NCBI GenBank assembly: GCA_009839975.1
Contig: VXOP01000337.1
Coordinates: forward strand, 1-35,443
Length of the DNA: 35,443 bases
Origin: Candidatus Poribacteria bacterium
Lineage (GTDB): Bacteria; Poribacteria; WGA-4E; WGA-3G
Direction of reading: 5' to 3'
The position numbers were made by a program, and so were the translations under genes. The notes beneath the pieces were generated by a model that ran no database searches, was not told the origin of the DNA, and saw only the letters and a list, made by a program, of their open reading frames with translations. Within the stretch, counting starts at the first letter, position 1. The number at the start of each line of letters is the position of its first letter. Of the stretch, positions 6,486 through 6,786 are shown piece after piece.

Positions 6486-6655
6486 CATTCACCACAACCG
6501 AAACGGGGGCATAAACCCCAATTTGAGGGTGAATCAGCCCAAAAGTATCACCTTGCATCTGTGTCCCCGCATCAAGTCATTATTTGCATGTTCTATACAC
6601 ATTCTGGGGATTTGGTGATTTCCTATTTTTGACATAGTTGAATTATCACTGATTT

Positions 6656-6786
6656 TTTTTTGACATATTAAGTGCAAACATGCTATAATTATTATAATTA
6701 GCAAGGTTTCTTTCCCACCTCAATCTGCAATGAAAGAGATGATTCCGATGGACACCAAACTTTCCGACGCTAAACTAAACACATAG
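6656..6786 (+). pseudogene. Duplicated guaB promoter, 5'UTR and first codons, ending in an 18-codon mini-ORF (guaB relic)
   Basis: About 105 bp from the TTGACA at 6660 match 126-230 with about 5 mismatches. Mini-ORF 6730-6786 reads [18 protein letters not shown]. Confidence 0.8.
6660..6689 (+). promoter_or_regulatory. Second copy of the guaB promoter, now upstream of nuoI
   Basis: TTGACA 6660-6665, 18-bp spacer, TATAAT 6684-6689. Confidence 0.75.

Follow-up and report, generated by a model that had tools for sequence, protein, structure and literature searches.

Redundant gene copies can decay into remnants by internal deletion, with both ends of the gene kept and the middle lost. Genomic islands integrated at guaA (e.g., GIsul2) replace the tail of a housekeeping gene, and the old tail remains beyond the insert. 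Internally deleted gene remnants and operons split by inserts are already known kinds of structure. Here we describe a locus in a sponge-dwelling Poribacteria genome in which nuoI is preceded by the promoter, head codons, and tail codons of guaB; the stretch analyzed (35,443 nucleotides of contig VXOP01000337.1, herein the window) also carries an intact guaB. Like the remnants of redundant copies, the guaB relic retains both ends without the middle; it differs in that the lost guaB held the promoter of its operon partner and in that the promoter and both junctions are nearly intact. The guaA islands and the window share a replaced gene tail and an old tail past the insert, but the insert in the window has no integrase, its far end carries the guaB promoter and head, and guaB is the gene concerned. 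A search of the open-licence literature found nothing specific on the guaB-nuoI locus or on such a scar.

The intact guaB (196 through 1716; IMP dehydrogenase, TIGR01302) lies near the start of the window, and all features described here are on the forward strand. Its promoter, leader, and first 13 codons (104 through 233) recur at 6638 through 6767 with 118 of 130 positions identical (91%); from the −35 box to codon 13 (126 through 233 against 6660 through 6767) the two copies differ at 5 of 108 bp, in agreement with the approximately 5 reported in a preliminary description of this DNA. Upstream of the relic is a native-type guaB flank without the repeat element found at the intact copy (empty site, 6624 through 6659). 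It is followed by a guaB-type promoter, TTGACA-18-TATAAT with an extended −10 (6660 through 6689), and by relic copies of the leader (6690 through 6729) and the first 13 codons (6730 through 6768; ribosome binding site [RBS] AAAGAG). From codon 13 the reading frame passes directly into the last five guaB codons and stop (AKLNT*, of the type found in genomes G006 and G015; 6769 through 6786), which yields an 18-codon mini-ORF (6730 through 6786). The stop is 18 nt ahead of nuoI (6805 through 7353; NADH-quinone oxidoreductase subunit I-like), and the intervening sequence is the native guaB-nuoI spacer including the nuoI RBS (AAAGGAA; 6787 through 6804). Compared with full-length guaB, 488 of 506 codons (1,464 nt) are missing internally and in frame; this fits, and makes exact, the deletion of about 480 codons proposed earlier.

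The 3′ part of the relic is short, and its identity was established through the nearest relatives, G006 and G015 (91 to 92% DNA identity at nuoI). There guaB ends GCTAAACTTAACACATAG, 17 to 18 bp ahead of nuoI, and after the guaB end GTTGCTAAACTTAACACATAG the spacer is nearly identical to that of the relic, which matches both genomes from the guaB tail through to the start of nuoI. The preliminary description had identified AKLNT* as a guaB end from a 16/21 match to the intact copy; this holds, the match to the G006/G015 tails being higher (18/21) and running on into the nuoI leader. With 15 of 18 positions before the stop, the relic tail is the top match among 3,351 stop-codon sites in the window, and BLAST aligns the tail, spacer, and nuoI start to the corresponding place in G015 (85% over 59 nt; E = 1e-11). 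Chance similarity is ruled out by this ranking and by the continuity with the nuoI leader match in the relatives. The AKLNT tail also differs from that of the window’s intact guaB (VANLNT) and belongs to the type seen in G006 and G015, where guaB and nuoI are directly adjacent. The locus thus shows guaB homology at its 5′ end, guaB homology at its 3′ end, and an intact counterpart at the same position in relatives; these alignments identify the relic as what is left of a guaB after internal deletion, with genuine guaB sequence at either end. As a separate observation, the last ∼27 guaB codons (480 through 506) are identical between G006 and G015 (L053/L052), which are about 90% alike elsewhere; this suggests a recent exchange over the final guaB codons between these two lineages.

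Gene order in relatives defines the position of the relic. Across 59 scanned Poribacteria nuoI loci, a full guaB lies within 0.5 kb upstream of nuoI on the same strand in 48, and at 1.1 to 1.3 kb upstream in 4 more; the 7 loci without a full upstream guaB include 2 with TPR/FN3 genes and 1 cut by a contig end. Within the genus, the guaB-nuoI gap is below 80 bp in many genomes. Judged from these comparisons, the ancestral arrangement in Poribacteria has guaB immediately ahead of nuoI, and the relic sits in this native position next to nuoI. Together with the 17 to 18 bp gap in the nearest relatives, ancestral adjacency places nuoI already within the guaB transcription unit, the spacing suggesting cotranscription of the two genes in relatives. 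Because the adjacency is ancestral, the old promoter in the scar was probably retained for nuoI rather than newly gained. The preliminary description had correctly noted an intact promoter upstream of nuoI (TTGACA-18-TATAAT) and had taken it for promoter capture, a reading that does not survive the comparison: capture by a nuoI formerly under another promoter is contradicted by the gene order of relatives. The fuller version of that proposal, in which a local guaB duplicate decayed and nuoI, once with a promoter of its own, took over that of the duplicate, would explain why the head and tail of the relic are guaB sequence; with nuoI ancestrally behind guaB and the relic no copy of the neighboring gene, we consider it highly improbable.

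Loss of guaB upstream of nuoI is also seen elsewhere. At L094 and L095 (9749 through 10001), from two genomes of another genus of the family (g2), the interval from the usual upstream oxidoreductase to nuoI contains no guaB, and ∼200 bp ahead of nuoI lies a conserved TTGATA-17-TATAAT stretch that belongs to the guaB upstream region. Genome-wide, G018 (the genome of L095), G041, G045, and G058 have only an IMPDH-related paralog of 35% identity. These loci resemble the window in that guaB was lost and nuoI kept the upstream region; they differ from it in having no head-tail fusion, the TTGATA-17-TATAAT stretch being the only part clearly kept.

The two guaB copies in the window are different alleles. 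The intact gene is 93.5% identical to that of G006 at the DNA level and alike along its length except for the last ∼6 to 10 codons: codons 502 through 505 all differ from G006/G015, as do 497, 500, and 501. This VANLNT end is of the TPR-linked type; in the last codons and in the guaB-TPR spacer the window is similar to G004 and G016. Ahead of its −35 box, the intact guaB shares with the G006 guaB a repeat element with an imperfect flanking duplication; the relic, like G015, reads straight across the site without the element and has two derived bases in common with the G015 guaB. The empty site and the G015-type bases rule out recent local duplication of the neighboring intact gene as the source of the relic. 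The second guaB of the preliminary description, taken as a local duplicate of the first, is thus not supported; the relic is a different allele in the native nuoI-side position. The suggestion that relatives might hold an intact second guaB was not borne out, as no pair of close intact copies was found across 73 genomes of the order; the second guaB match in many genomes of genus g2 is the IMPDH-related paralog (35% identity). An old duplication with differential loss, whereby a common ancestor had guaB-TPR-FN3-guaB-nuoI, G006/G015 collapsed between the copies, and in the window lineage the downstream copy lost its middle, accords with the combination in G006 of a window-type 5′ region and a relic-type tail, as a collapse would yield. 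It requires several losses, and lacks any genome with two intact copies among the 73. The closest match to the window TPR gene (84%) is moreover a G007 copy not at guaB, so that a late arrival of the gene is simpler; we regard this scenario as quite unlikely.

Both outer flanks of the locus can be traced to relatives. Window positions 1 through 240 are 98% identical to the region upstream of the G006 guaB. The contig starts inside the repeat element, and contig C374 of the same genome, which carries the oxidoreductase flanking guaB in G006/G015, ends with a 40-bp exact overlap to the window start. From this overlap and the upstream match to G006, both outer flanks are native, with foreign material between them. 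The region downstream is mosaic (51 informative sites group the window with G006 and 46 with G015), so recombination between G006-like and G015-like lineages is likely. The window comes from a 454-contig draft of a metagenome-assembled genome, and an assembly chimera could be suspected; however, the longest exact run between the two guaB copies is 33 nt, both outer junctions are independently matched in relatives, and no repeat coincides with the head-tail join, leaving very little probability for an artifact. The repeat element (window 1 through 125; L053 8245 through 8363) is inserted upstream of guaB and has an inner palindrome between 12-bp terminal inverted repeats; dozens of copies of its core are present in the genome, and the element probably broke the contig. 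Other dispersed repeats (GCGGTCTGGGAAACCCAGCCCCTACGATC) are intergenic (14218 through 14383 and 22903 through 23019).

Between the intact guaB and the relic are a TPR lipoprotein gene (1756 through 3030) and a gene for an FN3-repeat secreted protein (3030 through 6413) with a HEIGHAIGLKH metalloprotease-like motif (HEIGHAIGLKHPW, zinc-protease-like). A strong hairpin follows the FN3 gene (6448 through 6490; −20.5 kcal/mol, z = −5.85); it is likely a terminator by its predicted folding, although its U-tail is weak and a simple terminator scan did not list it. Since this hairpin could stop read-through, the retained promoter probably keeps nuoI expressed. TPR and FN3 genes are found between guaB and nuoI in the window, G004, and G016 (where the stretch is split over two contigs). 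The FN3 protein has many partial relatives in G007, a few in G004/G016, and none in most other members of the genus. No integrase or recombinase gene was found in the insert, which holds only the TPR and FN3 genes, and integrase-driven integration at the 3′ end was rejected for this reason. The two guaB tails at the ends of the insert are 16/21 alike, a likeness that guaB homology itself accounts for. In G004, guaB 3′ ends of about 59 and 75 codons survive as truncated pieces (L041 8239 through 9764 and L025/L063, contigs C68 and C114). A TPR lipoprotein gene follows each piece directly, and an FN3 fragment and a promoter-like stretch common to both come before it; C68 is not the guaB-nuoI locus, and a gene downstream has a weak match to an IS1595 transposase zinc ribbon. 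The locus in the window also points to a fast-moving TPR-FN3 family that makes its way between guaB and nuoI in Poribacteria. More speculatively, the pair may spread among sponge Poribacteria with the help of guaB sequence that it carries, namely the 3′ end and in some cases a deleted head and promoter. Such sequence would serve as a homology arm for re-entry into the guaB-nuoI operon, each time restoring guaB and leaving a scar before nuoI, with the truncated tails in G004 as further stages; we think this rather unlikely.

The history that we favor, if by no great degree of confidence, is that a guaB-TPR-FN3 block recombined in, the nuoI-side guaB then lost its middle, and the scar promoter transcribes nuoI. 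It is the simplest history built from known steps. The aligned sequences directly show both ends of guaB, the ancestral gene order, the block that was inserted, and the distinct allele. In the ancestor, guaB would have been followed directly by nuoI, with the guaB promoter serving both. A related lineage would then have contributed, by recombination, guaB and the TPR-FN3 block upstream of, or into, the guaB-nuoI unit; homology-facilitated illegitimate recombination (PMC3240628), with one homologous and one nonhomologous end, would yield such a guaB-TPR-FN3-guaB arrangement, which we infer here. In the resulting temporary state one of two guaB genes would have been redundant, and the nuoI-proximal copy would have lost 488 codons in frame; the promoter, leader, 13 head codons, 5 tail codons, and native nuoI leader would have stayed. 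The scar promoter would now transcribe nuoI, which would otherwise be cut off by the TPR-FN3 block and the hairpin. This two-guaB intermediate, the order of events, and the driving of nuoI by the scar promoter would be the reconstructed part of the history.

Two observations speak against it. No genome with two intact guaB copies was found among the relatives. In addition, the foreign tail of the intact guaB begins at about codons 497 to 502, nearly coincident with the end of the relic deletion (codon 501/502), and a later, independent deletion accounts for such near-coincidence only by chance. The same near-coincidence is expected if the deletion came first, i.e., if a TPR-FN3 unit elsewhere already had a guaB head-tail fusion (promoter, 13 codons, and last codons) and a single exchange with the native guaB tail swapped the tails, the one from the native gene ending up with the fusion in front of nuoI. 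The truncated guaB 3′ ends that precede TPR genes in G004, including the one at an unrelated locus, also fit. Such a fusion, however, would not contain codons 497 and 500 of the intact guaB, which look foreign as well; recombination would be needed over only ∼20 bp; and the fusion, with a head of local-clade type and a foreign tail, implies that the unit itself was already a chimera. We take this order of events as the main rival, but as a doubtful one. It and the history favored above agree on the anatomy of the locus and on retention of the promoter.

Both guaB copies have TTGACA-18-TATAAT with an extended −10 TG, and they are the sole 12/12 promoter matches in window positions 1 through 7500. 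The change of the RBS from AAGGAG in the intact copy to AAAGAG in the relic, noted in the preliminary description, is real and is seen in 0 of 15 other guaB leaders aligned. Unchanged hexamers and an altered RBS would fit selection on transcription rather than on translation of the peptide, one base being thin evidence. The guaB start codon is probably at MDTK (or MIPMDTK), because two relatives carry an in-frame TAG shortly upstream. Within the leader, a stretch around CCCACCTCAATCTGCA (e.g., window 158 through 195 and 6692 through 6729) is kept genus-wide and the remainder is variable; an Rfam search of the leader matched no known RNA element.

Gene remnants and operon splits are common, and the broader interest of the locus is modest. 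It would nonetheless be an unusually clear fossil of an operon that was split yet kept working: the promoter, leader, and both junctions of the deleted gene remain legible, and the unsplit state is known from relatives.
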